The notes under the pieces are model-generated. The model was not told where the DNA came from. It was given only the letters and a program-made list of their open reading frames with translations, and searched no databases. Positions 2,894-58,989 of a stretch of 64,000 bases of DNA are shown piece after piece (within the stretch, counting starts at the first letter, position 1; every line of letters starts with the position of its first letter). The translations under genes and the position numbers were made by a program. Origin of the DNA: Bacteroidaceae bacterium (GTDB lineage Bacteria > Bacteroidota > Bacteroidia > Bacteroidales > Bacteroidaceae); NCBI GenBank assembly GCA_017428785.1, contig JAFRQD010000011.1, forward strand, positions 62,001 to 126,000, read 5' to 3'.

Positions 2894-2977
2894 ACGCAGG
2901 TTGCGTACCGAGAGACGCAACTTGTGTCTGTGGAAACGCAGGTTGTGTATCTGCATTTGCAAGCTGCGGAAGAAGAA
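2894..2977. repeat. 21-bp period array, ACGCA-N3-TGCGT type, 4 units
   Basis: Four 21-bp units at 2894, 2915, 2936 and 2957. Each holds a small inverted repeat: ACGCA-GGT-TGCGT, ACGCA-ACT-TGTGT, ACGCA-GGT-TGTGT, and the decayed TTGCA-AGC-TGCGG; the 8-bp remainders are unrelated. It sits in the 251-base gap between the glycosyltransferase and the cupin gene, 72 bases past the stop. The rest of the gap holds nothing I recognise. Same motif and same period recur at 14149-14232. Confidence 0.85.
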
Positions 2978-3073
2978 TGCTGCCTGCCAGCGATGGTTAT
3001 CTGACAGCCGGAAACTATTTATCTACAAGCGGTTGACGACAAATACGCTATAAAACAATTTATAATATTTAAT

Positions 3074-3469
3074 ATGGTAATCACAACTGAAATACTTGAC
3101 GCGCTCAGTGCTAAGGCAAAAGCCTGTGAGCGACTGCGTATGAACTACGACCTCCGGACATCTCCGGATGACCAAAGTCAGCGCATGCTAAACGCATTGG
3201 AGCCAGGCACTATAATGCCTATCCATCGCCATCCTACAACTTGCGAGACGATTGTCTTGCTTCGTGGCAGCATCAAGGAACTGCTCTACGATGAAAAAGG
3301 AAATCTGACGGAAAGCGTCATACTGAAAGCAGGGACTGAGCCTTCTGCAATGAACATCCCCGCAGGCGCTTGGCATTCACTTGAGTGCCTGGAGACCGGT
3401 ACAATCCTCTTTGAGGCAAAGGATGGCGCGTTCGAGCCCCGACGCGCAGAAGACACGATGGAAAAGTGA
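3074..3469 (+). CDS. WbuC-like cupin-fold metalloprotein
   Basis: 131 residues forming a single cupin barrel. Metal-binding cupin signatures are visible: HRHPTTCETIVLLRGS (residues about 55-70, His, His and Glu ligands plus a Gly) and GAWHSLECLE (about 97-106, third His). The name comes from WbuC of E. coli O-antigen clusters; WbuC proteins are regularly found in O-antigen or capsule loci but the reaction is not established. The neighbours here are likewise polysaccharide genes. The last codons and stop fall in a GTGAAAAGG repeat (3461-3493), so the exact C-terminus may vary among strains. Confidence 0.8.
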   Translation: MVITTEILDALSAKAKACERLRMNYDLRTSPDDQSQRMLNALEPGTIMPIHRHPTTCETIVLLRGSIKELLYDEKGNLTESVILKAGTEPSAMNIPAGAWHSLECLETGTILFEAKDGAFEPRRAEDTMEK

Positions 3470-3493
3470 AAAGGTGAAAAGGTGATAAAGTAA
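3461..3493. repeat. GTGAAAAGGTGAAAAGGTGA low-complexity repeat at a stop codon
   Basis: Short tandem words GTGAAAAG/GTGAAAAG/GTGATAAAG cover the stop codon of the cupin gene and the 27-base spacer to the next gene. The same word string covers the stop of the ABC ATPase gene at 54752-54793. Confidence 0.7.
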
Positions 3494-3496
3494 AAA

Positions 3497-4576
3497 ATGC
3501 TTTTCTTTGAGCTCATACGCATAGCCTTAGGCAGACAGGAGACTCTCAGCCATACCCCTACCGAGGAAGAGTGGCACCAACTGTTTGATGAGGCGAAGCA
3601 GCAGACACTAATAGGAATACTCTATGAAGGTCTGTGTAGGCTCACAGCTGCTCAGAAACCGCCACGGCAACTGCTCATCGACTGGCATGCGTCGGTGCAG
3701 AAGATTATATGCGACAACAAACGCCTCAATCACGATACGGTATGGGTGAGCCAACGCTGGGCGAAGCTTGGCTATCGGAACATTATCCTCAAAGGTCAGG
3801 GCAATGCCCTACTCTATCCCGACCCCATGCTACGTGTGCCTGGCGATATCGACATCTGGCTTGACGGCAACCGACGCCAGATTGCCAATTATATCCGCAG
3901 CCATTTCCCGAAATTGGAGGTGACGCGCATCGAGATGGAGTTTCCCGTCCGTAAGGACACTCATATCGAGGTTCACTTCTTGCCAAGCTTCCTCTATGAC
4001 CCGTTCAAGGACTGCAGGATGCAGCGCTATTTCCTCCAGCAACTTTCGAAGCCGAAGCAAGTGGAGCTGTCCGACGAGGGCACTATCAACATTCCCAACG
4101 ACGAGATGAACTTGGTGTTCCAGCTTAGCCACATCTACCGCCACCTCTTCTACGAAGGTATCGGGCTCAGGCAACTGATGGACTACTATTACCTGAGTCA
4201 ACTCCTGACCACATCAAAAGGCAATGAGCTCAGGGAAAAGGTTCTTCCTGTCATTCGCGAACTTGGTCTGACAGACTTCTGCAGAGCATTGATGTGGGTG
4301 CTGGGCGAAGTGTTCTATATGCCCAAAGAAATGATGCTCACCGAACCCGATGAGCGTCGCGGCCGCTTCCTGTTGCAAGAAGTGATGCGTGCAGGAAACT
4401 TCGGGCATGCAGACGACAGAGTGGGCAACTGGGAAGAGATGAGCAGATGGGAAAGGCTGGCATGGGGTACACGCTGGAGCTGGCGACTATTGGGGCAATA
4501 CCCCCGAGAAGTTTTCTGGCATCCTTTCTATCGCATATCACAATATTTATGGAGACTTTTTAATGGATATCTGTAA
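3497..4576 (+). CDS. NTP_transf_5 family nucleotidyltransferase-fold protein
   Basis: 359 residues. The family (uncharacterised nucleotidyltransferase, Pfam NTP_transf_5) belongs to the polymerase-beta-like nucleotidyltransferase superfamily and is frequent in polysaccharide clusters of Bacteroidetes and other bacteria; its substrate is unknown. Seen: YRNIILKGQGNALLY followed by the paired metal-binding aspartates in PGDIDIWLDG (about residues 115-124), and IEVHFLPSFL as the likely third acidic motif. The rest is helical. Its stop overlaps the start of the next gene by one base (TAATG), so translation is probably coupled to the initiating transferase. Confidence 0.8.
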   Translation: MLFFELIRIALGRQETLSHTPTEEEWHQLFDEAKQQTLIGILYEGLCRLTAAQKPPRQLLIDWHASVQKIICDNKRLNHDTVWVSQRWAKLGYRNIILKGQGNALLYPDPMLRVPGDIDIWLDGNRRQIANYIRSHFPKLEVTRIEMEFPVRKDTHIEVHFLPSFLYDPFKDCRMQRYFLQQLSKPKQVELSDEGTINIPNDEMNLVFQLSHIYRHLFYEGIGLRQLMDYYYLSQLLTTSKGNELREKVLPVIRELGLTDFCRALMWVLGEVFYMPKEMMLTEPDERRGRFLLQEVMRAGNFGHADDRVGNWEEMSRWERLAWGTRWSWRLLGQYPREVFWHPFYRISQYLWRLFNGYL

Positions 4577-5973: not shown

Positions 5974-6008
5974 AGTAAATCATAATGTCTAATTTATTAT
6001 AATTAAGG

Positions 6009-8519: not shown

Positions 8520-8538
8520 CTTATCTCGACATATCGGC

Positions 8539-14148: not shown

Positions 14149-14232
14149 ACGCAGTCTGTAAATGAAGAAACGCAGTCTGCAAATGAAGAAACGCAAGTTG
14201 CATACGTTGGTACGCAATCTGCGTCTCAAAAA
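14149..14232. repeat. 21-bp period array, ACGCA-N3-TGCGT type, 4 units
   Basis: Units at 14149, 14170, 14191 and 14212: ACGCA-GTC-TGTAA, ACGCA-GTC-TGCAA, ACGCA-AGT-TGCAT, ACGCA-ATC-TGCGT. The first two also share the filler ATGAAGAA. It occupies most of the 315-base gap between the TonB receptor end and the amidase start, 86 bases past the receptor stop. Period and core are identical to 2894-2977. Confidence 0.87.
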
Positions 14233-14317: not shown

Positions 14318-16351
14318 TCACAGCTTCAGTCTCCATCGCGCTCCTGCCATTACCCATGTGCCGGGCTGGGGAACGGAGCCGAGATCGTAGTAGCGATGGT
14401 TGGTGAGGTTCGTGGCCTGCACGTAAATCTGATAGCGAGGGGCGTCCCATTGGAGCTTTGCGTCGAGCATGGCGTATGGCTGATAGGGGACGAGTTCGCC
14501 GCCACTCAGATAACTGCCCACGCGTTCTTGCCATCGGAAATCCCAACTCATCGAAAGACGGCTGACAATACGATGGGAGAGGTTCGCCACAACTTTGTGC
14601 CGCAAGTACTCCATCGCCACATTGCTCTTCACAACGCCCTCTGCATCGTGCTTGGCCTGATGAATGAAAGTGTAACCAGCCGAGAAAGAACGTAACCATG
14701 TGTCGTGACCGTAAAGTTTCGGGAAAGAGACTCTCCCCTGAGCCTGCACGCCTACATTGTCGAGGCCGAAGGAAGCGGTATGGAAGATGTCGTCGGGTGA
14801 ATACATCACCCAGTCAATCATCTGTGTTCCATGGTGATAGAAGGCTCGAACCGATGTCTCTACCCCACTCCACTTGTGCTCTGCTCCGAGCGAAAAGGAG
14901 TGATTGTGCTCAGGCTTGAGGTCGCGATTCCCTTCGTGTGTCGGGCTCTTATAATATAGTTCTGTAAAGGTTGGCAGACGGAAGCCTTTGTTGTAGGAGA
15001 AGAGCAGTTTCCATTGCGACGAGGGGCGATAGGCGATATCGATGCCCGGGTAGAAACGGAAGCGATGGTCTATGCTCGATGTCATGCTTGCCATCAGGCC
15101 GGCGGAAATCGTCCAATGCTGCAGCAGGATGTTGTGCTCAAGGCAGAAGGATACGGTCGTGCGGTTGTCGCTACGCGTATAGACGCCCAATCCGTCTTTC
15201 TGCGGAATGTCTTTGCCGATATTCGAGCTGAGGATGTTATCGTGCCTCAAGAGTGCTGAAGCTGCCGTCTTGCCGAGTTTCCAATCTACATGGCCGCCAG
15301 CCTTAAGGCCATAGACATCTGTCCGATGGAAGTTCTCGCCAAAAGTCGTGCCGCGAACCAGCTCGAAGTTGTCCCAAGAACGGTGCCAAAAGACTTGCGG
15401 CGTGAAGTGGAACTTGCCCTTAGTCTCAGCACTAATGCTTGTCATCAGCCGCTGGTTGCGCTCATATTGGTCGGGATAGTTAGCGCTGTAGAAAGTATTT
15501 GCTCCGTAGTTTTTCTTCGAGAAGCCAAGCTGCCAGTCGAGCCGCAATGCCTCGCTTTCGTAGTCGCCCTGATAATAGAGCTGTCCCTTCTGCCAAGAGC
15601 TGTTGAGTGTACCGCCGTCGCTTCTTCCGCCGCTGCCGCTGATACGGTTCGAGAACCTACCAGTCGAGAGAGAAATTCTTGCCTCGCCTTCCGCAGTACC
15701 GAAGGAACCTCCTTTGCCAGCAAGCTCAACGCAAGATTCCCTGTCGTGCTTGGTGACAATATTGATGGCGCCGCCAAAACTCTGTCCGCCATAAACACGG
15801 CTTGCTGCGCCCTCGAGCACCTCGATGCGTTCGATGTCGCTGATGCTGACGGGAAAGTCTGCAGAAAGGTGTCCTGTTTGTGGATTGCCGATATCGATGC
15901 CGTTGAGCAGAAGAGTGACTTGGTCGAAGGTGCCGCCATCGATGCTGATGTCCGTCTGAATACCAAAGCCACCGCGTTGCCGGACATCCACGCCGGTGAC
16001 TAACTTCAAGAGGTCGTTGACGCTCTGCGCCGCCGCTTGTTCAATATCCTGCCGGCTGAGCACACATACTATTCGCGCCGCCTGCAACTGGGTAAGGGGA
16101 GCCATCGAAGCGCTTACCGTAAGCTCGGACAACTCCTTACCCACCTCCGTCTCCTCTGAGGACAACGGAACAGAAATCTTTCCTCGAGAAGAGGGAGAAA
16201 GACTCGCCTGCGCCTTAGCCGCCACACTCAATGTGGAAACGCTGAGGACACCTATGCATATGACTTTATGCAGGCTGGCAAAGGCAGCATAACCCTTATG
16301 GGCAAACTGCCGCCATCTGATTATATGAGTGGCATTCCTGATTTCTTGCAT
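14318..16351 (-). CDS. TonB-dependent outer-membrane receptor (BtuB/CirA-like)
   Basis: Imports a ligand (cobalamin, siderophore or similar) across the outer membrane using TonB energy; the ligand cannot be told. 677 residues from ATG at 16351; an in-frame ATG at 16375 is equally possible, and both lie inside the end of asnA. N-terminus carries RQFAHKGYAAFASLHKV and a signal-like ICIGVLSVSTLSVAAKAQA. Plug domain about 85-195 (AAAQSVNDLLKLVTGVDVRQRG, IDGGTFDQVTLLLNGIDIG, IERIEVLEGAASRVYGGQSF), then the 22-strand barrel ending in ARWRLKL with a terminal Leu rather than Phe. No SusD partner is adjacent, so it is not a classic polysaccharide utilisation pair. Confidence 0.92.
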   Translation of the reverse strand: MQEIRNATHIIRWRQFAHKGYAAFASLHKVICIGVLSVSTLSVAAKAQASLSPSSRGKISVPLSSEETEVGKELSELTVSASMAPLTQLQAARIVCVLSRQDIEQAAAQSVNDLLKLVTGVDVRQRGGFGIQTDISIDGGTFDQVTLLLNGIDIGNPQTGHLSADFPVSISDIERIEVLEGAASRVYGGQSFGGAINIVTKHDRESCVELAGKGGSFGTAEGEARISLSTGRFSNRISGSGGRSDGGTLNSSWQKGQLYYQGDYESEALRLDWQLGFSKKNYGANTFYSANYPDQYERNQRLMTSISAETKGKFHFTPQVFWHRSWDNFELVRGTTFGENFHRTDVYGLKAGGHVDWKLGKTAASALLRHDNILSSNIGKDIPQKDGLGVYTRSDNRTTVSFCLEHNILLQHWTISAGLMASMTSSIDHRFRFYPGIDIAYRPSSQWKLLFSYNKGFRLPTFTELYYKSPTHEGNRDLKPEHNHSFSLGAEHKWSGVETSVRAFYHHGTQMIDWVMYSPDDIFHTASFGLDNVGVQAQGRVSFPKLYGHDTWLRSFSAGYTFIHQAKHDAEGVVKSNVAMEYLRHKVVANLSHRIVSRLSMSWDFRWQERVGSYLSGGELVPYQPYAMLDAKLQWDAPRYQIYVQATNLTNHRYYDLGSVPQPGTWVMAGARWRLKL

Positions 16352-17358
16352 TCCTTTCGCATACTTTCCGGCCAAATGCTGGCCTGTGTTTCACCAATAT
16401 GAGCCTTGTGCAGGAGCACCATACAAAGTCGGCTCTGACCGATACCGCCACCAATTGTCAAAGGCAATGTGTCGCCCAACAAACGCTGGTGGAAGTAAAG
16501 CTCCTTTCGCTCTTCCTTGCCCTGCAAAGCAAGCTGGCGGAGCAGCGATTCCTTGTCCACGCGAATGCCCATCGAACTCAGCTCAATGCTGCGATTGAGC
16601 GTCGGATACCAAACAAGCAAATCGCCATTGAGTCCCATAAAACCGCTCTCGTTGGGAGTGCTCCAGTCGTCGTAGTCAGGAGCACGGTTGTCGTGGACCT
16701 CACCATTGCTTAGCTTACCACCAATACCAATGATGAACACGGCGCCGTAAGTCTTGCTGATAAGGTCCTCGCGCTCTTTCGGGGTCTTGTCCGGATAGAG
16801 CTGCAGCAATTCCTCGCTATGAATGAAGTGAATGTCCTCGGGCAGGAAAGGCTTCAGCTGCGGATAGTTCTCGCACACATAGAACTCCGTGCGCAGAATG
16901 GCGCTGTATATCTTCGAGACAATGCGACGTAGATAGGCCTCATTGCGGTTCTCGCGCAAAAGCACGCGCTCCCAGTCCCATTGATCGACATAAAGGCTGT
17001 GGATATTGTCCAACTCCTCGTCCGCACGAATGGCATTCATGTCTGTCACGATGCCGAAGCCGGGCTTGGTCTGGTACTCGGCAAGAGTAAGGCGTTTCCA
17101 CTTTGCGAGAGAATGTACCACCTCGGCCGTAGCATCATTCATATCCTTGATAGGAAAACTTACGGGGCGCTCCACGCCGTTGAGGTCATCGTTGATGCCC
17201 AATCCTCGTAGCACAAAGAGCGGGGCCGTGACGCGACTCAGACGAAGTTCTGTAGAAAGGCTTGCCAAGAAAAAATCTTTGATTTTCTTGATTGCTTGCT
17301 CCGTCTGGTTCAAACTTAACAGAGCAGTGTATCCTTCAGGCTTTAAGAGTTTGCTCAT
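16321..17358 (-). CDS. asnA: Aspartate--ammonia ligase
   Basis: Makes asparagine from aspartate, ammonia and ATP. 345 residues, normal for AsnA, an aminoacyl-tRNA-synthetase-like class II fold. Seen: LKPEGYTALLSLNQTEQAI opening, LSRVTAPLFVLRGLGINDDLNG, VSFPIKDM, VHSLAKWKRLTLAEY, VDQWDWERV and the end motif LPLTIGGGIGQSRLCMVLL. It overlaps the TonB receptor start by about 30 bases. A promoter box stands 24 bases upstream. Confidence 0.97.
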   Translation of the reverse strand: MSKLLKPEGYTALLSLNQTEQAIKKIKDFFLASLSTELRLSRVTAPLFVLRGLGINDDLNGVERPVSFPIKDMNDATAEVVHSLAKWKRLTLAEYQTKPGFGIVTDMNAIRADEELDNIHSLYVDQWDWERVLLRENRNEAYLRRIVSKIYSAILRTEFYVCENYPQLKPFLPEDIHFIHSEELLQLYPDKTPKEREDLISKTYGAVFIIGIGGKLSNGEVHDNRAPDYDDWSTPNESGFMGLNGDLLVWYPTLNRSIELSSMGIRVDKESLLRQLALQGKEERKELYFHQRLLGDTLPLTIGGGIGQSRLCMVLLHKAHIGETQASIWPESMRKECKKSGMPLI

Positions 17359-18425: not shown

Positions 18426-18436
18426 CGAAAAAAAGT

Positions 18437-18465
18437 TCATAGTTCATAGTTCTTAGTCCATTGTT
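18437..18465. repeat. TTCATAGTTCATAGTTCTTAG low-complexity repeat
   Basis: Tandem TTCATAG words between two divergent promoters. Related CATAGT/GACTATG strings occur at 22405, 44846, 44905 and inside the PfkB gene near 56000. Confidence 0.65.
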
Positions 18466-27962: not shown

Positions 27963-28072
27963 TCAGCAGTGAGGATGGAAAACTTCACACGTCAACTTTG
28001 GAAAATTCACACGTCAACTTTGCAAAATTCACGCGTGAACTTTGGAAACATCACGCGTCTATACAATCCATA
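27963..28072. repeat. 22-bp period array, CACACGTC type, 5 units
   Basis: Units start at 27963 (diverged), 27985, 28007, 28029 and 28051. The three central ones read TCACACGTCAACTTTGG, TCACACGTCAACTTTGC and TCACGCGTGAACTTTGG plus five more bases each; the last keeps TCACGCGTC. It lies between the MFS gene end (19 bases away) and the namZ promoter. Confidence 0.88.
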
Positions 28073-32614: not shown

Positions 32615-32702
32615 AAAACGCCGCCTGCGGCGATGGCAAATTCCGCGTGCGGCGATGGGCATTTCCGCGTGCGGCGATTGCAATCCCCGCGTGCGGCGTT
32701 TT
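32615..32702. repeat. 88-bp element with AAAACGCCGC/GCGGCGTTTT ends, 22-bp period
   Basis: Ends AAAACGCCGC (32615-32624) and GCGGCGTTTT (32693-32702) are inverted copies. Inside, 22-bp units start at 32626, 32648 and 32670, each TGCGGCGAT plus filler ending CCGCG, and a fourth core at 32692. It lies 66 bases after the mtgA stop. The T-rich end could act as a terminator. A CCCCCTACAGGGG string follows at 32706. Confidence 0.88.
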
Positions 32703-32854
32703 ATATCCCCCTACAGGGGCATTCTCGATGTTCCTTTGGATTTCATTTTTGCTAGAACAAAGAAGAGATCTGTTTCTTGCTCGCCAATTATAAAAATATT
32801 TTGTAAAAATTGCACTTTTTGCTATATAGACTTTGCATTTTGGAAAGTTTTTTA

Positions 32855-37100: not shown

Positions 37101-37826
37101 TGCCGTGGCTGTGCGCTGGAGAGCGAACTCCTTCAAGGCAAGGCTCATCTGGCCAAGCGCAGCCAGTGGATTATCGGCGGCGACGGTGCTTCCTACGACA
37201 TCGGCTACGGCGGTCTCGACCATGTGATTGCCAGCGGCGAAGACGTGAACATCCTCGTGCTCGACACAGAGGTTTACTCCAACACTGGCGGTCAGGCTTC
37301 TAAGGCCACGCCTCTGGGAGCCATCGCCCAGTTCGCAGCTCAAGGCAAGCGCATCCGCAAGAAGGACCTCGGCATGATTGCCACCACCTATGGCTATGTC
37401 TATGTGGCTCAGATTGCAATGGGTGCCGACCACGCTCAGACGCTCAAGGCCATCCGCGAGGCCGAGGCTTGGCATGGTCCAAGCATCATCATCGCCTACG
37501 CTCCCTGTATCAACCACGGCCTCAAGGCTAAGGGCGGTATGGGTAAGAGTCAAGCAGAGGAGAAGAAGGCTGTCGAGTGCGGATATTGGCACCTGTGGCG
37601 CTTCAACCCCGCCCTCATCGAGGAAGGCAAGAACCCGTTCAGCCTCGACTCGAAGGAGCCGAACTGGGAGAACTTCCACGACTTCCTGATGGGCGAGGTA
37701 CGCTACCTCAGCGTCAAGAAGGCTTACCCGGACGAGGCCGAAGAACTCTTCGCAGAAGCACAGCGCATGGCCCAGATCCGCTACAAGAGCTATGTACGCA
37801 AGACTCAAGAGGACTGGACGGAGTAA
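34131..37826 (+). CDS. nifJ: Pyruvate:ferredoxin (flavodoxin) oxidoreductase
   Basis: Oxidises pyruvate to acetyl-CoA and CO2 while reducing ferredoxin; central enzyme of anaerobic metabolism. 1231 residues, the fused single-chain form. Domains in order: N-terminal TPP-pyrimidine domain (YMFSEVAAIYPITPSSPMAE), the CoA-binding/domain III region, two 4Fe-4S clusters (NCIQCNQCAYICPHAAIRP; LDCLGCGNCADICPGNP) at about 685-770, and the C-terminal TPP domain with the third cluster (FSGACSGCGETPYVKL; GDGASYDIGYGGLDHV). Strong codon bias suggests high expression. A terminator follows. Confidence 0.98.
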   Translation: MSKEKKFITCDGNEAAAHVSYMFSEVAAIYPITPSSPMAEHVDEWAARGRKNLWGQTVSVQEMQSEAGAAGAVHGSLQAGALTTTFTASQGLLLMIPNMYKIAGELIPCVFDVSARTLASHSLCIFGDHQDVMACRQTGFAMLCEGSVQEVMDLTAVAHLASLETMVPFVNFFDGFRTSHEYHKIELMDQEDIRPLVKEEYIKRFRDRAMSPERPITRGTAENPETFFTHREACNPYYNSVPEAVEKYLGEISKITGREYHLFSYYGAKDADRMIILMGSATDAAREAIDYLNANGQKVGMISVHLYRPFSVKHLLASVPKTVKRIAVLDRTKEPGANGEPLYLDVKDAFYDVEDRPLIVGGRYGLGSHDTTPAQIISVFNNLAMPEPKNHFTVGIVDDVTFTSLPPVEEIALGGAGMFQAKFFGLGADGTVGANKNSVKIIGDNTDKYCQAYFSYDSKKSGGFTCSHLRFGDTPIRSTYLVTTPNFVACHVQAYLHMYDVTRGLQKNGTFLLNTIFEGEELAKFMPNKVKKYFAQNNITVYTINATKIAQEIGLGNRTNTILQSAFFRITGVIPVDLAVEQMKKFIVKSYGSKGEDVVNKNYAAVDRGGEYKQFPVDPAWANLPDDAEKADDAPAFVKEVVRPINAQAGDLLPVSTFAKFGTADGSWEVGTAAYEKRGVEAFVPAWNKENCIQCNQCAYICPHAAIRPFVLTDDELAKFDGLETLEMKAPAAMKGMHFVIEPSVLDCLGCGNCADICPGNPKLGKALTMVPFNPDAADMKKMAADWDKLVKVPSKQELVDIKQSVKNSQFAQPLFEFSGACSGCGETPYVKLISQLFGDRQMIANATGCSSIYSASIPSTPYTKNEKGQGPCFNNSLFEDFCEFGLGMQLGHKKMRGILREKAEELVKTTAFDWMREATQKWLDTYDDSAANRKATDEFIAALEKAILPIDGAIEFWQGKGIELYGAEVAAQKLQEAKDAKAAGSPICPCRGCALESELLQGKAHLAKRSQWIIGGDGASYDIGYGGLDHVIASGEDVNILVLDTEVYSNTGGQASKATPLGAIAQFAAQGKRIRKKDLGMIATTYGYVYVAQIAMGADHAQTLKAIREAEAWHGPSIIIAYAPCINHGLKAKGGMGKSQAEEKKAVECGYWHLWRFNPALIEEGKNPFSLDSKEPNWENFHDFLMGEVRYLSVKKAYPDEAEELFAEAQRMAQIRYKSYVRKTQEDWTE

Positions 37827-37852
37827 GACTCTCAACAGCATCTCATAAAACG

Positions 37853-37885
37853 AGGCAGGTTCCACCAACGGAGCCTGCCTTTTTA
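37853..37885 (+). terminator. Rho-independent terminator of nifJ
   Basis: Perfect 11-bp stem AGGCAGGTTCC / GGAGCCTGCCT (one G-U pair) with loop ACCAAC and TTTTT after it, 26 bases past the stop. Confidence 0.92.
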
Positions 37886-37977: not shown

Positions 37978-38066
37978 AAAACGCCGCCTGCGGCGTTGGC
38001 AATCCCCGCGTGCGGCGATGGCAATCCCCGCGTGCGGTGTTGGCAATCTCCGCAGGCGGCGTTTTT
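37978..38066. repeat. 89-bp element with AAAACGCCGC/GCGGCGTTTT ends, 22-bp period
   Basis: Ends AAAACGCCGC (37978-37987) and GCGGCGTTTTT (38056-38066). Units start at 37989, 38011 and 38033: TGCGGCGTTGGCAATCCCC, TGCGGCGATGGCAATCCCC and TGCGGTGTTGGCAATCTCC. It lies 152 bases after nifJ, beyond that gene's own terminator. Nearly the same element as at 32615 and 51926. Confidence 0.9.
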
Positions 38067-38072: not shown

Positions 38073-38160
38073 CCCATAGAGGGATTTTTGACACCTTAAA
38101 GAAGGGGTATTGACACCTGATAAAAGAGGCATTGAAACATAGTAGGAGGTGTATTGTTAC
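38073..38160. repeat. 22-bp period array, GTATTGACAC type, 4 units
   Basis: Units at 38073, 38095, 38117 and 38139, each purine-rich then ending in ATTTTTGACAC, GTATTGACAC, GCATTGAAAC and GTATTGTTAC. Follows the previous element after 6 bases but has a different core. The same period with a different sequence is striking. The CCCCCTACAGGGGCATTC after 32702 looks like one lone unit of this type. Confidence 0.82.
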
Positions 38161-38256: not shown

Positions 38257-38282
38257 GAATATTTGCGTTCGTAAATAAAAAG

Positions 38283-38329
38283 AAAAACAAGCTTTTCTTT
38301 TGCATTTCACTCGCTTATTCGTACCTTTG
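38283..38329 (+). promoter_or_regulatory. Conserved promoter module of the acyltransferase gene
   Basis: AAACAAGCTTTTCTTTTGCA, then TTTCACTCGCTTATTCG and TACCTTTG (38322-38329). TTTGCA sits near -33 and TACCTTTG at -7. The same module occurs three times at 47246-47484 and in altered form before ilvC. Confidence 0.82.
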
Positions 38330-38350
38330 CAGAGTCTAAACCATATCAAG

Positions 38351-46217: not shown

Positions 46218-46349
46218 GGTGTGAGGTTTTCCTTCTGTTCGTGAGTGCTTTTCAAAATCCTCGTGTGGATTTCTCAATTTTCACGTGTGGATTTCACGAA
46301 ATCCTCGTGTGGATTTTGCAAACATCTCGTGTGCAGTTTCCGCATTCCT
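46218..46349. repeat. 22-bp period array, CGTGTGGATTT type, 6 units
   Basis: Units start at 46218, 46240, 46262, 46284, 46306 and 46328. Cores: GGTGTGAGGTTTT, CGTGAGTGCTTTT, CGTGTGGATTTCT, CGTGTGGATTTCA, CGTGTGGATTTTG and CGTGTGCAGTTTC. It ends 50 bases before the HU-like gene and lies 535 bases after the thioesterase stop. Longest array of the window. Confidence 0.9.
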
Positions 46350-46399
46350 ATCGCAAGAACATTAACACTTTAATTATTAACCATTTAATTCTTACTATC

Positions 46400-46861
46400 A
46401 TGATTAAGTACAGTATCGTTATCAAGAGTACAAAACCTGGAACTAAAAAGGAACTTATCCAGGAGACCAAAGCTTACGGTGTGGCACAGGCCGACGAAAT
46501 CCTCGACCTCGACAAGTTCTGCCAGCACATCGCCGACCACAACTCGCCTTTCTCGAAGGGGACAATCAAAGGCATCCTCACCGATGCAGTGTCTTGTCTG
46601 AGAGAGCAGATGTTGGCAGGCAACAAGGTGAAACTCGGCGACTTGGGTGACTTCCATGTGGAGCTCGACACCGAAGGTGCAGTCACCACTGATGACTTCA
46701 GCACGAACAACATCAAGGATGTCAATATCCGTTGGACTCCCAGCAGCAAGTTCAAGCACCTGCGTCAGGAAGCCACCTTCCAGCTTGTTCCCAGCCGCTC
46801 TGCACAGGCCGACGCCATCGAGGTCGTCAGGAACACAGACACGATTCACGGCTTGGAGTAA
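46400..46861 (+). CDS. HU-like DNA-binding protein (HU-HIG type)
   Basis: 153 residues from ATG at 46400 (MIKYSIVIKSTKPGTKKELIQ). Family of Bacteroidetes proteins with an HU/IHF fold, N-terminally extended: LDKFCQHIADHNSPFSKGTIKGILTD, GNKVKLGDLGDFHVEL, and a C-terminal tail without the Arg-rich basic stretch of other HU. Likely nucleoid-associated. Nearest gene to the six-unit array upstream. Confidence 0.88.
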   Translation: MIKYSIVIKSTKPGTKKELIQETKAYGVAQADEILDLDKFCQHIADHNSPFSKGTIKGILTDAVSCLREQMLAGNKVKLGDLGDFHVELDTEGAVTTDDFSTNNIKDVNIRWTPSSKFKHLRQEATFQLVPSRSAQADAIEVVRNTDTIHGLE

Positions 46862-47245: not shown

Positions 47246-47484
47246 CTCTCGCTCGGAAATGAAAATAAAAAACAAGCTTTTCTTTTGCTTTTCTCTTGCT
47301 TATTCGTAGCTTTGACCTGCGGTCTTAGTTACTCTCGCTCGGAAATGAAAAGAAAAACAAGCTTTTCTTTTGCATTTCTCTCGCTTATTCGTAACTTTGA
47401 CCTGCGGTCTTAGTTACTCTCGCTCGGAAATGAAAAGAAAAACAAGCTTTTCTTTTGCATTTCTCTCGCTTATTCGTAACTTTG
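47246..47484 (+). promoter_or_regulatory. Three tandem 85-bp promoter copies
   Basis: Copies start at 47246, 47332 and 47417. Each carries CTCTCGCTCGGAAATGAAAA, the palindromic AAACAAGCTTTTCTTTTGC, and a -7 box: TAGCTTTG (47307-47314), TAACTTTG (47392-47399) and TAACTTTG (47477-47484), exactly 85 bp apart. The tail TTTGACCTGCGGTCTTAG is in copies 1 and 2, and a lone copy of this tail lies at about 47136. The last box is 30 bases before the STAS-kinase start. Confidence 0.85.
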
Positions 47485-50855: not shown

Positions 50856-51899
50856 ATGGCAAAAATGAATTTTGGCGGAGTCATCGAGGAAGTTATGACC
50901 CGCGAAGAGTTCCCTCTTGAAAAAGCACGTGAGATTCTGAAGGACGAGACGATTGCAGTCATCGGCTATGGTGTTCAAGGTCCAGGTCAGGCATGCAACC
51001 TGCGCGACAATGGCTTCAATGTCATCGTAGGTCAGCGTCAGGGCAAGACTTTCGAGAAAGCCATCGGCGACGGATGGGTTCCAGGTGAGACACTCTTCTC
51101 CATCGAAGAGGCAGCCGAGAAGGGCACCATCGTGATGTGTCTGCTTTCCGATGCAGCCGTCATGAGCGTATGGCCCACACTCCAGAAGTACCTCACTCCT
51201 GGCAAGGCACTCTATTTCTCTCATGGCTTCGCAATCACTTGGAGCGACCGCACAGGTTGCGTGCCCTCTAAGGACATCGATGTCATCATGGTGGCACCGA
51301 AAGGCAGCGGCACAAGCCTGCGCACCATGTTCCTCGAAGGACGCGGTCTGAACAGCTCCTATGCCGTTTATCAGGACGCCACAGGCAAGGCCCTCGAGCG
51401 CACACTGGCCCTCGGTATCGGAATAGGTTCTGGCTATCTCTTCGAGACCACCTTCCAGCGCGAAGCCACATCCGACCTCACTGGAGAGCGCGGCTCATTG
51501 ATGGGAGCCATTCAGGGTTTGCTCCTGGCACAGTATGAAGTGCTGCGAGAGAATGGCCACACACCCTCCGAAGCCTTCAACGAGACAGTAGAGGAGCTCA
51601 CGCAGAGCCTCATGCCACTCTTTGCACAGAAGGGTATGGACTGGATGTACGCCAACTGCTCAACCACAGCCCAGCGCGGAGCTCTCGACTGGTTCCCACG
51701 TTTCCACGATGCCATCAAGCCTGTTATGGAGCAGCTCTATGCAAGCGTGAAGTGCGGACATGAAGCACAGATTAGCATAGACTCCAACTCGAAGCCCGAC
51801 TACCGTGTGGGTCTTGAGAAAGAACTGGCTGCCCTGCGCGACTCTGAGATGTGGCGCACTGCCGAGACTGTCCGCAAACTCCGCCCTGAGAACAACTGA
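50856..51899 (+). CDS. ilvC: Ketol-acid reductoisomerase
   Basis: Second step of valine/isoleucine synthesis, NADPH-dependent. 347 residues, class I. IAVIGYGVQGPGQACNLRDNG is the Rossmann loop and FSHGFAITW the conserved His; the C-terminal knotted domain has GERGSLMGAIQGLL and TVEELTQSLMPLF. Separated from ilvB-ilvN by the HU and STAS-kinase genes but with its own strong promoter. Confidence 0.97.
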   Translation: MAKMNFGGVIEEVMTREEFPLEKAREILKDETIAVIGYGVQGPGQACNLRDNGFNVIVGQRQGKTFEKAIGDGWVPGETLFSIEEAAEKGTIVMCLLSDAAVMSVWPTLQKYLTPGKALYFSHGFAITWSDRTGCVPSKDIDVIMVAPKGSGTSLRTMFLEGRGLNSSYAVYQDATGKALERTLALGIGIGSGYLFETTFQREATSDLTGERGSLMGAIQGLLLAQYEVLRENGHTPSEAFNETVEELTQSLMPLFAQKGMDWMYANCSTTAQRGALDWFPRFHDAIKPVMEQLYASVKCGHEAQISIDSNSKPDYRVGLEKELAALRDSEMWRTAETVRKLRPENN

Positions 51900-51925: not shown

Positions 51926-52014
51926 AAAACGCCGCACAAGGAGATTTCCGTTTCCAAGTGCGGTGTTTGCTATTTCCGCACGCGACATTGACCATTCCCG
52001 CACGCGGCGTTTTT
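51926..52014. repeat. 89-bp element with AAAACGCCGC/GCGGCGTTTT ends, 22-bp period
   Basis: Ends AAAACGCCGC (51926-51935) and GCGGCGTTTTT (52004-52014). Units at 51934, 51956 and 51978 (GCACAAGGAG, AAGTGCGGTG, GCACGCGACA) and a fourth core at 52000. It begins 27 bases after the ilvC stop in the convergent gap to the sugar epimerase. More diverged inside than the copies at 32615 and 37978. Confidence 0.85.
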
Positions 52015-53069: not shown

Positions 53070-53105
53070 CATGACAAAATATAATAATGTATGGTGTTTG
53101 ATGCA

Positions 53106-53737: not shown

Positions 53738-53742
53738 AGGAT

Positions 53743-53948
53743 AGCCCCCCTCTGACTCCCCCAAAGGGGAGAAAACGAAAATTTCAATTTTCAATGTTCA
53801 ATTTTCAATGGTAAGGGGGGCACACGGCACAGGCTCAGTACCCGAAAAAGACGATGGTCAGCCCCCTCTGACTCCCCCAAAGGGGAGAACTATTAAATGG
53901 TAAATGTTTAAATGGTAAATGGTAAATGTTTAAATGGTAAATGAGAGA
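53743..53948. repeat. Two REP-like copies and ATGGTAAATG words
   Basis: GCCCCCCTCTGACTCCCCCA at 53744 and GCCCCCTCTGACTCCCCCAA at 53861 are direct copies 117 bp apart, each ending AAAGGGGAGAA. Between them are TTTCAATTTTCAATGTTCAA words and after them TTAAATGGTAAATGG words up to the ATPase start. Confidence 0.75.
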
Positions 53949-54781
53949 TGAACGGACAATACATCGAACGCATCGAGATAGATTCCCTTTGGAACGGGCA
54001 CAAGCACATACGCTGGGATTTGCAGCCAGGCGTCAACATCCTTAGTGGCGTGAACGGTGTGGGCAAGAGCACGATTCTCAACCGCTGCATCAAACACTTG
54101 CTCGACATAGACAAGGATGCCCGCAAGAACGACGGCGTGCACCTCCAGTTCTTCCCAAAAGAAGCAAAGTCTGTGGATTTCGAAGTCATTCGCAGCTTCG
54201 ACCGCCCTGTGCTCTCCAGCGACGTGTTGAACAAATTCACAGAAAACCAGATGCAGACAGAACTGGACCTGCACATCTATCACCTCGGACGCAAATGGCT
54301 CGACTATCAGGTAAACCTCTCAAACCGCATGGTGGAACTCTTCGCAAGCAAAGACCCGAAGGCAGCGACAAAGGTGCAGGAACTGGCCAACGAGAAGACA
54401 CACTTCCAGGATGTGGTGGACGAACTCTTCCGCGAAACAGGCAAGACCATCAAGCGAGACCAGAACGAACTCTACTTCGACAGCTACGGAGAATCCATCT
54501 CCGCCTACAAGCTTTCAAGCGGCGAAAAGCAGATGCTCATCATTCTGCTCACCGTACTGGTGCAAAACAAGAAGCCCTTCGTCCTCTTCATGGACGAACC
54601 AGAAGTCAGCCTCCACGTCGAATGGCAGCAACGACTGCTCGAACTCCTGATGGACCTCAACCCCAATGTGCAGGTCATCCTCACCACACACAGCCCCGCA
54701 GTCATCATGAACGGCTGGAGCGACAGAGTGACCGACGTGGAAGACATCGAAGTGGAAAAAGGTGAAAAGGTAAAAAAGTGA
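53948..54781 (+). CDS. ABC-type AAA ATPase (AriA-like)
   Basis: 277 residues, compact ABC/OLD-like ATPase: Walker A GVNGVGKST (about 34-42), signature LSSGEKQMLI (about 190), Walker B PFVLFMDEPEVSLH and the H-loop LTTHSPAVI. No coiled-coil or nuclease domain. The following DUF4435 gene gives it the layout of the PARIS AriA-AriB pair. I recall this pair as common across Bacteroidales, so it may be a housekeeping module. Its C-terminus (EKGEKVKK) is translated low-complexity repeat. Confidence 0.8.
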   Translation: MNGQYIERIEIDSLWNGHKHIRWDLQPGVNILSGVNGVGKSTILNRCIKHLLDIDKDARKNDGVHLQFFPKEAKSVDFEVIRSFDRPVLSSDVLNKFTENQMQTELDLHIYHLGRKWLDYQVNLSNRMVELFASKDPKAATKVQELANEKTHFQDVVDELFRETGKTIKRDQNELYFDSYGESISAYKLSSGEKQMLIILLTVLVQNKKPFVLFMDEPEVSLHVEWQQRLLELLMDLNPNVQVILTTHSPAVIMNGWSDRVTDVEDIEVEKGEKVKK

Positions 54782-55862: not shown

Positions 55863-57123
55863 GATACTGGTCGTAAAGCTCCTGCAGATAAGCAAACTTC
55901 TCGCCTTCCTTTTCCTCGAGATAGGTTCCGCCATAATAGAAACAGGCAAAACCTCCCGACACAATCCCCCAACGACAAGCCTCACGGAGGTCCAGAGTCA
56001 GTCCATAGTCCATAGTCCACAGTCCATAGTCAGTCCGTTGTATGTTGTCCGTTGTCAGTTGTCCATTCTCCCCTTTGGTGGAGCTATAGGGGGGCTGTCC
56101 GTTGTCAAACATCTGCCTTGCCAGCGAGCCTATAACACCGCCAGCAAAGTTATCGCCACAACCTGTACTGTCGCCTTTTCTGCCTTGCTTCAGAGCTTCG
56201 CCTACTGCCTTGGAGACAGGCATCGTCTGCACCTCTATCTTGCCGAAAAGAGGACTGTCCGCCCAAAGATGTATGTTCTGAGCGCCGTTGGTAACGATTA
56301 CCGCCCCCGTACCCTTCTCTCGGAAGAAAGCAATTGCCGATGGAATATCCTTGCATCCACTCAGCCGAAGGGCTTCCTCATGGTCCACAAGAAGCAGGTC
56401 GATGAAACGATAACTCTCGTCGCTCTCCCCCATTGGCCAGCGCTTTTCGGGATGCTCTTTCTCGTTAAGGAAATCATAAACGGTGTTGACGACAGTTATT
56501 CTTCCCTTTGCTTTAGCCTTCTTGAGCATAGGAAGCAACCCTTGATGAATGCGAGGCACAAGAGCTGTAGAGCCGAAGACGCAGATATCACTGTCATAGA
56601 AACTCTCATCCACCTCATCGGGAAGGTAATTCCATGAAGCTCCGATGGTGTTCACGAAAGTACGTTCGCCATGACCATTATCGTAATTCGGGTCGGAAAG
56701 GACACTTGTAGATGCCGTTTCGCTTCCCTTTTCCATGCGGTAATGGCTGAGGTCGAGCCTCGTCTGACTCAGTTTCTCGAGCAATCCAACGCCAACATCA
56801 TCATCGCCTCTGCAGCCATAAAAGCAGACTTCGCTCTCTTTGTAAGCCAGTTGCGAAGCATTGATGAGCGCCACAATGCAGGGACCTCCCACATTTTCCT
56901 TCTTAGGCTCTTGTCCTTTGGTCAGGCTGGGGAGTATTTCTTTTACGAACGATTGCCCCGAAAAGCGTTCCAACTCTTCCTCGAAAGTAAGCTTCCCTGG
57001 CTCCAGACCTCCGTCACCAGGCTTCTGGCTCCAATACTTGCGAAATGTTTCTGACTGGAAATCTATGTTATCATAAATGCGGTCGAGAAGGCAACAACCG
57101 ACGCCACTGATTCGAACAGCCAT
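55852..57123 (-). CDS. PfkB-family carbohydrate kinase with repeat-derived insertion
   Basis: 423 residues, longer than the ~300-380 usual. PfkB features: GGPCIVALINASQLA substrate loop, ADS-like region, KGDSTGCGDNFAGGVIG with the catalytic Asp and anion hole (about 315-332). Residues about 340-377 (SSTKGENGQLTTDN, YGLWTMDYGL) are translated intergenic repeat placed shortly after the catalytic motif. Phosphorylates a sugar made by the isomerase upstream. Last gene of the aldolase-isomerase-kinase run. Confidence 0.85.
   Translation of the reverse strand: MAVRISGVGCCLLDRIYDNIDFQSETFRKYWSQKPGDGGLEPGKLTFEEELERFSGQSFVKEILPSLTKGQEPKKENVGGPCIVALINASQLAYKESEVCFYGCRGDDDVGVGLLEKLSQTRLDLSHYRMEKGSETASTSVLSDPNYDNGHGERTFVNTIGASWNYLPDEVDESFYDSDICVFGSTALVPRIHQGLLPMLKKAKAKGRITVVNTVYDFLNEKEHPEKRWPMGESDESYRFIDLLLVDHEEALRLSGCKDIPSAIAFFREKGTGAVIVTNGAQNIHLWADSPLFGKIEVQTMPVSKAVGEALKQGRKGDSTGCGDNFAGGVIGSLARQMFDNGQPPYSSTKGENGQLTTDNIQRTDYGLWTMDYGLTLDLREACRWGIVSGGFACFYYGGTYLEEKEGEKFAYLQELYDQYLKQ
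55992..56107. repeat. CATAGTCCATAGTCC / GTTGTCCGTTGTC repeat inside the PfkB frame
   Basis: The words GTCCATAGTCCATAGTCC, CCGTTGTCAGTTGTCC and CTCCCCTTTGGTGGAGC match intergenic repeats elsewhere in the window and stay in frame. Confidence 0.75.
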
Positions 57124-57242
57124 AAGGAATTAAGAATTTAAAATGAAAAATTAGAAATTAACAATGAAGAATTATAAATGACTTTCAGGTCTCCATGATT
57201 GGCATTATCTGATTATTTCACTTTCCACATTTCGTTTTTCAC

Positions 57243-57920: not shown

Positions 57921-57931
57921 GTTGTATAGTC

Positions 57932-58765
57932 TTAGATTCTGTTATTGCTTTCAAATAGTAAGATGTGTTCCTTGACGACCTCCCTCGAAGCGTCTATCAT
58001 CACCTGTTTGAGGGGCACATATTCCTCGTCGGGTTTTTGGGCGAGACGTTCGTTGATGCGCTTCATGATGCCTCGCTGAATGGCAGTCGCAACATTTATC
58101 TTGCAGATGCCATTATGGATGCAAGCCTTGAAGTCTTCTACGCTCGTCCCACTTCCGCCGTGAAGCACCAAAGGCAAACGGTTGGCCTCGTGTATCTCGA
58201 TGAGTCGCTTGATGTTTAGCTGAGGTGTGTGGACATAATGCCCGTGCAGATTGCCGATAGCAACGGCAAGAGCGTCGATTCCCGTAGCGCTCACGAAACG
58301 GACAGATTCCTCAACATCCGTGAAGACATCGGCAGTATCGACACCCGAGTTGCCTACCTTCCCCAGTTCGGCTTCCACATCCACTCCAGCGGCTTTTGCG
58401 ATTCGTGTCACTTCGCTCGTAACGGCTACATTCTCCTCGAAAGGCAGAGCGGCTCCGTCGAACATGACAGAAGTGAAGCCCAGTCGAATGGCTCGGACAC
58501 AAGTTTCAAGGCTTTGCCCGTGGTCCAAATGCACACAAACAGGCACAGACGACCTCTTCGCCGCCTCGAGATAAAGCGGAGCCATCAGTTCCATCGGCGC
58601 TTCAGGAAACTGAACCTCAGCGAGTTGCAGGATGATTGGGGAGCGCAACTCCTCCGCAGCCTCGAGCGCTCCCATCACATTCTCAAGGCTTAGGCTATTG
58701 AAAGCGCCAACCGCATAATGCCGTTCGTTGGCATCTTTCAGTATTTCACTTAAGGTAACTAACAT
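57932..58765 (-). CDS. Class II ketose-bisphosphate aldolase
   Basis: Cleaves a ketose phosphate (fructose-, tagatose- or similar bisphosphate) to dihydroxyacetone phosphate and an aldehyde. 277 residues. Zinc ligands: VHLDHGQSLE, GNLHGHYVHTPQLN and VLHGGSGTS; the active-site Asp is in VCVHLDHG. KLGKVGNS-like GELGKVG loop (VEAELGKVGNSGVDTADV). First gene of the run, with a promoter box at 58812-58819. Exact substrate unknown. Confidence 0.9.
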   Translation of the reverse strand: MLVTLSEILKDANERHYAVGAFNSLSLENVMGALEAAEELRSPIILQLAEVQFPEAPMELMAPLYLEAAKRSSVPVCVHLDHGQSLETCVRAIRLGFTSVMFDGAALPFEENVAVTSEVTRIAKAAGVDVEAELGKVGNSGVDTADVFTDVEESVRFVSATGIDALAVAIGNLHGHYVHTPQLNIKRLIEIHEANRLPLVLHGGSGTSVEDFKACIHNGICKINVATAIQRGIMKRINERLAQKPDEEYVPLKQVMIDASREVVKEHILLFESNNRI

Positions 58766-58811
58766 TTGATGGTTATTGGTTTTAGGTTATTGGTTATTAG
58801 TTTTCCGACCA

Positions 58812-58819
58812 CAAATATA
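58812..58819 (-). promoter_or_regulatory. Promoter -7 box (TATATTTG) of the ketose operon
   Basis: Reverse strand reads AACTTATATTTGTGGTC, 47 bases before the aldolase start. Confidence 0.65.
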
Positions 58820-58879
58820 AGTTTTTTTACGAACATATTAAGCATGTTCATCTACTTTTTTTCGATAAGTCTCAAAACA

Positions 58880-58989
58880 CCACCAGTCAAGTTGCCAGAC
58901 TTCACACGTGAATATTGCGAAGTTGACGTGTCTATTTTGCCAATTTGACACGTGGATTTTGACAACTAGACACGTCTAATTCACCAACC
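58880..58989. repeat. 22-bp period array, CACACGTG type, 5 units
   Basis: Units start at 58880 (diverged), 58902, 58924, 58946 and 58968: TCACACGTGAATATT, TGACGTGTCTATTTT, TGACACGTGGATTTT, AGACACGTCTAATTC. It lies 85 bases after the tRNA-Ala gene, upstream of the ketose operon. Core and period match 27963 and 46218. Confidence 0.9.

Follow-up and report, generated by a model that had tools for sequence, protein, structure and literature searches.

What do short tandem arrays have in common when they agree in period from locus to locus and not in sequence? The question is raised by nine arrays in a 64-kb stretch of bacterial DNA (hereafter the window, i.e. the whole of the DNA analysed). A sequence-only reading had described them as having a period of 21 or 22 bp and lying after the 3' ends of genes; palindromic symmetry as such, breadth across the family and turnover are not mentioned there. 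All nine were recovered, each by one or more of Tandem Repeats Finder (TRF), sequence reading and autocorrelation. TRF rows at a period of 21-22 are clear for five (14149, 27976, 32621, 37984 and 46252; scores 87-118) and weaker for two (58892, score 75; 38088, score 61). The arrays at 2894 and 51926 are without TRF rows; both pass autocorrelation at 0.64, and cores resembling theirs recur at other loci of the same genome. The features are as follows (the arrays are given without strand):

2891..2980, 21-bp array of about 4 units with ACGCAnnnTGCGT-like cores (sequence reading, autocorrelation; fold z -4.8), in a tandem gap about 70 bases beyond the stop of the gene at 2118-2822.
14149..14224, 21-bp array of about 4 units with ACGCAGTCTGCA / ACGCAAGTTGCA cores (TRF, reading; fold z -3.4), 3' of the minus-strand gene at 14318-16375.
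27963..28062, 22-bp array of about 4 units of ACACGTCAACTTTG type, CACGTG class (TRF, autocorrelation; fold z -4.5), 3' of the minus-strand gene at 28091-29443.
32615..32703, GCCGC-class element in which four CCGCNNGCGG cores follow one another at exact 22-bp intervals (TRF, reading; fold z -3.6); its ends, AAAACG...CGTTTT, are terminator-like both ways.
37852..37881, plus strand, terminator-like hairpin and T-tract (consensus scan), past the upstream gene, before and separate from the array at 37978.
37978..38066, GCCGC-class element with four cores at 22 bp (TRF, reading; fold z -7.6) and ends AAAACG...CGTTTTT, 3' of the gene at 34131-37826, presumably for pyruvate:ferredoxin oxidoreductase (its protein was read without a family search).
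38088..38150, weak 22-bp array of 2-3 units, TTGACACCTgAAAAAAGAGGCA (TRF), directly adjoining the preceding one; the weakest of the nine, left out of separate folding.
46235..46345, 22-bp array of 4-5 units, AAATCCTCGTGTGGATTT, CACGTG class (TRF, autocorrelation; fold z -3.6), upstream of a gene with a likely start at about 46399 that, reading its protein, we take to be HU-like; our home-made gene caller placed the start of this gene within the array.
51926..52014, GCCGC-class element with four diverged cores at 22 bp (autocorrelation, reading; fold z -3.3) and ends AAAACG...CGTTTTT, in a convergent gap beyond the gene at 50856-51899, whose protein we read as presumably ketol-acid reductoisomerase-like.
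58880..58990, 22-bp array of about 4 units with GACACGTG cores (TRF, autocorrelation; fold z -3.6), 3' of tRNA-Ala (59073-59147, minus strand).

Rfam, applied to the window at gathering score, returned no family apart from two tRNAs. For the 21-bp ACGCA class, a possible heptad peptide reading was noticed by eye.

Periods from 12 to 43 were scanned by autocorrelation (65% self-match over 44 bases). The window gave 6 matches at period 22, one of which (53873) is actually a 7-bp array, and 3 at period 21, two of which (12576 and 57115) are of another kind; every other period gave 0-2. First-order Markov simulated sequence yielded no period-22 match in 20 x 64 kb. A 458-kb sample of the same genome gave 54 matches at period 22, 11 at period 21 and at most 8 at any other period scanned, its array density being inflated because the stretches were chosen on contigs with GCCGC matches.

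The sequence-only reading had made its proposal depend on an excess of this period in related genomes. We ran this test, the excess is present, and the pattern survived. Stretches from 20 other species of the genus gave 16 matches at period 22 versus 1 at 20 and 2 at 23, those from 20 genomes in the family's other genera gave 11, and 80 named, mostly Prevotella-type loci gave 42 versus 5 at 20 and 4 at 23 (the window's own genome has none at 23). Outside the family, 319 kb sampled across 20 genomes gave no period-22 match. These four sets were chosen independently of array matches. Period-22 arrays occur at 28 of the 80 named loci, in 11 of the 20 genus stretches (among these L065, where it is a low-complexity pyrimidine array) and in 6 of the 20 family stretches; there are none at the loci of Segatella copri (two), Phocaeicola coprophilus (two) and Alloprevotella rava, nor in small contigs of Bacteroides clarus (19 kb) and S. 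copri (7 kb). Where sets were not chosen on arrays, the density is about 27 (named loci) to 94 (window) period-22 matches per megabase. Genome G065 has 17 matches at period 22, 7 at 11 and 3 at 33; support for 11 bp is thin, as 6 of these 7 lie within one 20-kb stretch, and so is that for 33 bp, where at least one match of the family set looks coding. Other stretches were selected: G065 and G096 were picked once their first 20 kb had shown arrays, the stretches of G051, G069 and ten further relatives were placed mostly on GCCGC matches, and some of Prevotella multiformis on matches of the third core described below. The arrays of the window are one instance of a lineage-wide pattern in the Prevotella family of gut and oral bacteria, and among the genomes sampled period 22 is limited to this family.

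The claim of a shared period with free sequence was supported, as 22 recurs across species while the core letters differ. The core CCGCGTGCGGCG has 459 copies in its own genome, 13-423 in 3 of 120 other members of the genus and 0-7 in the other 117. A second class, counted by an exact 25-base pattern, has 44 copies in the own genome and none in these 120; G034 carries (at L060:16393) a related form of the TCATGATG class and lacks the exact pattern. A third core has 13 sites in P. multiformis and none in 7 other genomes. Units are often near-palindromic, with a palindrome sequence that varies between species and between classes of one genome. Of 123 arrays, 28 have full 6-bp palindrome arms, where null rates are 1.6-3.5%; the strict test was failed by the other 95, including 11 of the 12 arrays of G065, and a small palindrome excess is also seen in arrays of other periods (4.31 versus 3.89).

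Core-to-core spacing in the GCCGC class is 22 in 97 of 105 cases, with a filler identity between loci of 0.62, i.e. about 38% differences. Within a locus the fillers are homogeneous, as had been claimed: identity is 0.685 versus 0.619 +/- 0.015 in permutations, 0 of 2000 being as high (38 elements with 97 fillers from the own-genome sample, the window and G051). A first impression by eye, that fillers in the GCCGC alignments are position-specific, did not hold up. Local homogenisation and rapid turnover, both of which are seen, would also be yielded by a mutational artefact, namely polymerase slippage on palindromes that favours 22 bp in this lineage without selection. However, slippage normally yields many periods, whereas matches are few at the neighbouring periods 19, 20, 23, 25 and 26, and the spacing persists after the fillers have diverged, so that we consider such an artefact very improbable.

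As the spacing recurs between species and the letters do not, selection on DNA geometry or on the origin of the arrays, and not on their sequence, is suggested. Our preferred reading, to which we assign a probability of roughly 0.4, is that the arrays are fast-turning-over intergenic satellite-like repeats that keep their helical phasing but not their sequence. Such a repeat would consist of about four units, often with dyad symmetry, set 22 bp apart; this makes two turns of 11 bp each, a pitch ascribed to bacterial DNA under negative supercoiling. Units might arise and homogenise through local tandem duplication and conversion, and array families might spread inside a genome by copying. With the geometry kept, successive dyads would fall on one face of the helix, where they might serve as cooperative sites for a putative dimeric or structural DNA-binding protein, or form a supercoil-sensitive structure. 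Against this, a length-biased duplication process could yield 22 bp without selection.

It is possible, if rather doubtful, that geometry is itself the conserved trait, the whole family keeping dyads two helical turns apart in its gene spacers and freely replacing their sequence since shape and phase are read by a putative lineage-specific structural or dimeric protein or by the supercoiled duplex. If true, this would make the arrays a bacterial counterpart of satellite DNA. A-form RNA likewise has 11 bp per turn, therefore multiples of 11 bp do not exclude double-stranded RNA.

The suggestion of tandem sites for a protein that binds one face of DNA stands in part. That the spacing stays exact while the fillers diverge speaks for phasing on one face of the DNA, and constant helical spacing regardless of filler was found both in the GCCGC class and, as period 22, across the family. 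A single sequence-specific protein that reads all the arrays is excluded in its simple form, because the cores of different species lack a common motif; the one recognised motif of a phased protein-binding array was sought among them by inspection, the cores proved unrelated, and a shared protein motif was rejected. The 11-bp ParR sites and the iterons of plasmids are likewise repeated in tandem every one or two turns of the helix, but they belong to a single locus, one motif and one protein, whereas the present arrays are dispersed and lack a common motif. Carriers of the arrays form a dominant group among the bacteria of gut, rumen and mouth. Should geometry be under selection, the arrays would offer a direct handle on the organisation of bacterial spacer DNA; if biased duplication is the source, an unusual mutational mechanism would be exposed. 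Either reading is testable in cultured species, e.g. P. multiformis.

Every array of the window lies after a 3' end, as first described, but genome-wide this is a bias and not a rule. The reported absence from divergent gaps holds for the window, but not for its genome, where the 458-kb sample has 63 arrays of period 21 or 22 in gaps of known type, 13 of them in gaps called divergent; some 'divergent' and 'genic' labels are wrong because the gene caller was home-made and tRNAs were included in this count only. Expressed as arrays per gap of at least 90 bases, the GCCGC class shows a 3' bias, with 12 per 28 in convergent and 3 per 36 in divergent gaps, and the CACGTG class shows none, with 5 per 28 and 8 per 36, respectively. 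Stretches not placed on array matches, those of G065 and G096 among them, gave 25 per 146 convergent versus 8 per 190 divergent gaps (p = 1.4e-4; Fisher p-values are approximate because one gap can hold two arrays), and 64 of 79 arrays in tandem gaps are on the 3' side. Under the satellite-like reading, convergent gaps and 3' sides might be favoured because insertions would be least harmful there, and also because the GCCGC class might act as a predicted bidirectional terminator.

The same bias would suit arrays of RNA hairpins acting as bidirectional terminators or as stabilisers of mRNA 3' ends, in which the palindromic units pair 1 with 4 and 2 with 3 to give one long stem. The eight window arrays that were folded did better than nearly all shuffles (z -3.3 to -7.6; in one case 1 of 200 shuffles was as good), but tandem palindromes give stable folds anyway. 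The GCCGC class has A-tract/T-tract ends (a T-run of at least 4 at 0.53 of 38 ends versus 0.13 and 0.26 further out), and a weak rise of T-runs is seen in convergent gaps of other genomes (0.24 of 66 ends versus 0.12 and 0.15), but not in their tandem gaps or at the non-GCCGC arrays of the own genome. Among 79 tandem-gap arrays, the sense RNA is the more stable of the two strands in 35 and the less stable in 44 (p = 0.99; the count omits arrays longer than 220 bases and those with N or 7-bp periodicity); the own genome alone gave 15 and 10. Fillers that would lie on opposite sides of the long stem lack covariation (0.554 versus 0.602 shuffled, 20 GCCGC elements). The CACGTG class is equally common in divergent gaps, which argues against terminators, and the array at 37978 is already preceded by the terminator-like hairpin at 37852 (the consensus scan of this region gave 10 terminator-like sites versus 7.5 +/- 2.9 in shuffles).

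We regard RNA hairpin arrays as an unlikely explanation. One long hairpin maintained by filler pairing in the GCCGC family was rejected for lack of covariation, and an RNA element under strand-specific selection for lack of asymmetry over all 79 arrays. The earlier idea of RNA elements in 3' ends fared poorly on the same absence of strand bias and on T-tracts that are clear only in the GCCGC class; a 3' RNA element in general is not supported. Judged by its letters, the GCCGC class looks like a bidirectional intrinsic terminator, with a GC-rich stem between an A-tract and a T-tract in convergent gaps. Unlike such terminators, the arrays stack several units where one would do, and classes other than GCCGC show no clear T-tract.

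Fourteen arrays have an orthologous gap that could be judged: 3 persist there, 1 has given way to an array of another class and 10 are missing. The element at 32615..32703 is absent from the orthologous gap in L138, L162, L164, L220 and L221. The best flanks of an array-free orthologous gap (L018:3741 versus L033) are 85% and 90% identical, and the spacer itself is unalignable.

Such absences, the core copies scattered by the hundred through a single genome, the species-specific cores and the inverted ends of the GCCGC class (AAAACGCC/GGCGTTTT) would all fit selfish REP- or MITE-like repeats, moved by a transposase and tolerated in 3' spacers, with a period that has no function. Nevertheless, independent mobile elements would not predict one period in the unrelated cores of different genera. 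The one Y1 match (RAYT-type, PF01797) of the 84%-complete genome lies in a 3,339-base locus that is free of period-21/22 arrays, and a RAYT/REP system was rejected on this lone gene without arrays in the surrounding 3.3 kb. Mobile repeats seem to us an improbable source. As for phage origin, one 32-base GCCGC two-unit pattern, the sole pattern tried, had no match in viral_contigs.

Among known repeats, REPs are described as short extragenic palindromes of high copy number in genome-specific families, with GTAG or CGTC tags and spacers of mostly 20-100 bp (PMC3733652). The present arrays resemble REP/BIME and RAYT systems in the former respects, but their spacing is fixed at 22 and the RAYT-type gene has no flanking arrays in 3.3 kb. 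The BrickBuilt MITE of Porphyromonas gingivalis has a 23-nt unit of one sequence family in 1 to 22.8 copies, common leader and/or tail segments in most copies, predicted long stem-loops and a unit number that differs between strains, with leader and tail matches in P. gulae (PMC4596501). It is likewise an intergenic tandem repeat of a Bacteroidales species, of nearly equal unit length and imperfect between loci (PMC4596501). In contrast, the present arrays have 22-bp units (97 of 105 core spacings, against 23 nt), typically about 4 cores, often palindromic, and many unrelated sequences across the family.

In titles and abstract starts of the open-licence literature we recognised no description of tandem 22-bp palindromes from Prevotella or its relatives. 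Repeat families are usually recognised by sequence, therefore a class defined by spacing and symmetry is easily missed. By analogy, eukaryotic satellite DNA also keeps its unit length while its sequence turns over and is locally homogenised, but the present arrays have about 4 units per site at many sites, and are bacterial. GCCGC copies have, by eye, common AAAACG/CGTTTT ends, and the next 20 bases to the left and right of them are slightly complementary (0.382 versus 0.339; 35 of 1000 shuffles).

Each of the nine arrays of 21-22 bp units which the sequence-only reading had claimed in the window was found again by at least one of two methods, Tandem Repeats Finder and autocorrelation. The real window gave 6 period-22 matches, one of which is really a 7-bp array, against 0 in 20 simulated windows (first-order Markov null). 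The window (G000:C2:62001-126000) belongs to an assembly of 2.98 Mb in 71 contigs, 84% complete, referred to here as the own genome. Gene 34131-37826 reads as a pyruvate:ferredoxin oxidoreductase; its closest named relatives include the uncultured Bacteroidales metagenome assemblies RUG13285 (95% protein identity) and RUG13363 (93%) and a Prevotella sp. from water buffalo, which suggests a rumen bacterium of Prevotella type as the most likely host.

Periods were counted, for every shift between 10 and 59, as 44-base stretches with a self-match of at least 65%.

Matches per period in each sample
Own genome (394 kb): period 22, 54; 21, 11; any other from 12 to 43, at most 8
Genus set (20 other species, 379 kb; at most the first 20 kb of contig 1 in each, chosen without regard to arrays): 22, 16; 21, 8 (several being 7-bp arrays); 14, 8; 24, 7; 28, 6; 23, 2; 20, 1
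Relative G065 (220 kb): 22, 17; 11, 7 (6 within a single 20-kb stretch); 33, 3; remaining periods from 12 to 43, 0-2
Relative G096 (220 kb; a masked portion adds about 1 to every count): 14, 12; 22, 8; 21, 5
Other genera of the family (20 genomes, 353 kb): 22, 11; 21, 5; 33, 5
80 named loci round the oxidoreductase gene (1.55 Mb): 22, 42; 21, 30; 14, 17; 18, 14; 33, 12; 20, 5; 23, 4
Prevotella multiformis DSM 16608 (200 kb): 22, 8; 20, 4
Other families (20 genomes, 18 of the same order, 319 kb): 22, 0

The 21-22 bp excess predicted for related genomes was borne out, period 22 being raised in the genus, family and named-locus sets; in G096, where it lies under period 14 and little over 21, five arrays match the kind described. 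Period-22 counts differ between the family and other-families sets (p = 0.001), although absence outside the family is provisional, since 7 of the 20 outgroup stretches fall short of 20 kb. Arrays of periods 11 and 33 exist, but they are few and clustered. Those with 11-bp units (e.g. TTGGGACGCTT), apparently without palindromes, occur in two relatives (L091:5168, L092:456 and L114:5679, as stretch:position) and hint that the basic step may be a single helical turn.

Intergenic arrays of a second class, whose period is 7 bp (TTCAATT, TAAATGG, AATTGAC etc.), are present in the own genome and several relatives, and add to the counts at periods 14, 21 and 28:
Window 53872-53969, 57114-57187, 18434-18465 and 56000-56064
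Other stretches L016:7705, L029:163, L052:16177 and L058:9702

The typical 21-22 bp unit consists of a filler and a near-palindrome of 10-16 bp, as read from the sequence in the following cases:
Genus set: AAGACGCGCGTCTT (G001), TACGACCGGTCATA (G016), GGGACGCGTCCC (G034), AAACACTTAAGTGTTT (G077)
Named loci: GGGAATCCGGTTCCC (P. multiformis), GAAAGTGCCACTTTC (P. dentasini)
When the majority unit of each array was required to hold complete 6-bp arms with a loop of 0-4, palindromes were found in 11/53 own, 6/14 genus, 1/12 G065, 3/6 family and 7/38 named-locus arrays, a strong excess over shuffled units (1.6-3.5%); this strict test nevertheless leaves 95 of the 123 arrays without a palindrome. A small surplus over shuffles (4.31 vs 3.89) also appeared when 7-bp arms were scored in 32 arrays of periods 19, 20 and 23-26.

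The own genome holds at least four array classes, namely GCCGC, CACGTG, ACGCA (period 21) and TCATGATGCAG. The GCCGC class is laid out as AAAACGCCGC, four CCGCNNGCGG cores and GCGGCGTTTT. The exact string CCGCGTGCGGCG has 459 copies in the own genome, 423 in G051, 154 in G069 and 13 in G072, and 0-7 in each of the remaining 117 genus members searched. The TCATGATG class, as an exact 25-base pattern, has 44 copies in the own genome and none in the other 120; G034 nonetheless holds a related array. For the core seen in P. multiformis, that genome has 13 sites, whereas seven other genomes have none. Two side observations concern the other classes: 21-bp ACGCA arrays at window 2891-2980, L017:3999 and L012:2023, inspected by eye, form open frames that repeat every seven codons (x-Q-x-A-Y/F-x-x), so that translation of some into heptad peptides is possible, and a gene reading as a small HU-like DNA-binding protein (window 46399-46861) lies directly downstream of a CACGTG-class array.

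GCCGC core-to-core distances of 13-34 (one mismatch allowed), taken from the own sample together with the window and G051, numbered 105, of which 97 were 22 and five were 21. In spite of this constant spacing, the 12-base fillers agree at only 62% of positions between loci; within a locus they agree at 68.5%, more than in any of 2000 permutations. The 62% is well over the level that would be expected of unrelated sequence, which suggests that the family probably spread by copying and was later homogenised locally. That the arrays are a purely mobile or selfish repeat seems to us rather improbable.

Turnover was followed at arrays with both flanks matching another genome. The 33 flank pairings, many of them one locus repeated, reduce to 14 judgeable arrays with reciprocal pairs counted once, absence being judged by gap length and by eye:
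Retained (3): L017:6382 vs L032 of G051, same CACGTG-type class, 3 and about 4 units, common right end; L022:3799 and L023:7280 vs G069, GCCGC in both genomes
Replaced (1): L017:11249 vs G051, flanks 97% and 83% identical, similarity ending at the stop codon
Absent in the comparator (10): L018:3741, L033:13954, window 32605, L064:16100, L037:14247, L162:7554, both L187 loci, L197:8281, L217:3506

Arrays thus appear and disappear from one related species to another. L017:11249 shows replacement of the whole spacer (248 vs 252 bases), with a GCCGC array in the own genome, a CACGTG-type array in G051 and a differing hairpin before each; as the own sample has 14 arrays per 27 convergent gaps, an array in both genomes may be coincidence. 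The window 32605 array has no counterpart in L138, L162, L164, L220 or L221 nor, as judged by eye, in L208, which is more diverged (L200 was left unjudged); L166:8456 and L179:13730, whose gaps are too wide, were left out of the count. The L217:3506 comparator has a repeat-like stretch, sub-threshold at all periods 15-29 (best 0.55 at 23). In the L018 gap orthologous to L033:13954, a GCCGC array of G051, the own genome carries a long inverted repeat (CAACAACGGATTGAACGGATTTGACGGATT and its complement).

Placement was expressed as arrays per gap of at least 90 bases, arrays inside called genes being counted apart. Genomes other than that of the window gave ratios of 33/164 for convergent, 54/628 for tandem and 12/213 for divergent gaps, with 6 arrays in called genes (convergent vs divergent, p = 2e-5; tandem vs divergent, p = 0.19). 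Stretches not placed on array matches gave 25/146, 35/540 and 8/190, with 4 genic (convergent vs divergent, p = 1.4e-4). Within tandem gaps 64 of 79 arrays lie closer to the 3' end (28/35 in stretches not placed on matches). In the own genome, per 28 convergent, 94 tandem and 36 divergent gaps, CACGTG arrays number 5, 7 and 8, and GCCGC arrays 12, 14 and 3, one of these three (L013) being a mixed array labelled GCCGC by the typing rule. Gene 3' ends are therefore favoured but not required: the position past 3' ends proposed from the window holds as a bias, and the statement that none stands in a divergent gap does not generalise.

The sequence-only reading had offered one-face protein sites or RNA elements in 3' ends. 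Folding of eight of the nine arrays in the window gave, for each, a structure of greater stability than almost every shuffled version (z -3.3 to -7.6), though tandem palindromes fold regardless of purpose. Among 79 tandem-gap arrays, whose transcribed strand is known, the sense RNA was more stable in 35 and less in 44 (p = 0.99); the own genome alone gave 15 vs 10 (mean -4.0 kcal/mol). At the 38 ends of own GCCGC arrays a T-run of at least 4 has a frequency of 0.53, compared with 0.13 and 0.26 at greater distance; elsewhere, in other genomes, the rise is weak at most (tandem gaps, 0.26 vs 0.20 and 0.26; convergent gaps, 0.24 vs 0.12 and 0.15). No covariation was found between fillers that would lie opposite each other in a single long stem (20 elements), and a terminator-like hairpin stands between the oxidoreductase gene and its downstream array. 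These results favour a cause at the DNA level; the GCCGC arrays, whose T-runs are the exception, may plausibly act as terminators. Hairpin clusters have been described as terminators (PMC8355165). An RNA or terminator role for the arrays in general we consider as improbable as a purely mobile or selfish repeat.

The account that best explains the arrays is one of satellite-like repeats whose geometry is conserved, in which units would duplicate and homogenise locally, families would rise and fall, and phase alone would persist. An 11-bp pitch has been attributed to negatively supercoiled bacterial DNA (PMC4132750), and at that pitch 22 bp make two turns. Dimers binding cooperatively on one helix face, or a structure sensitive to supercoiling, would account for the persistence of the spacing once the fillers have diverged. 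As there is no common motif, any reader would have to vary between species or recognise shape. We give this DNA-phasing account a probability of about 0.42.

The closest published element found is BrickBuilt of P. gingivalis, which has 23-nt units, 19 copies in one strain, a leader and a tail (PMC4596501), whereas the arrays here have 22 bp. REPs (PMC3733652) share high copy number and palindromes with the arrays, but fixed spacing is found only in the latter. None of the titles and abstract openings listed by the literature searches describes, for this family, tandem palindromes of 22 bp whose sequence is free.

Elsewhere in the window, an 85-bp unit (AAAAGAAAAACAAGCTTTTCTTTTGCATTTC...GCTTATTCGTA.CTTTG) is repeated almost three times at 47246-47484, 5' of gene 47514, and a related stretch stands as a single copy at 38270-38340, before gene 38300. 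The end of the unit resembles a Bacteroides-type promoter box. The region is 73-75% alike to stretches of G065, and across the 458 kb of own sample the 13-base heart of the unit has only these 4 occurrences.
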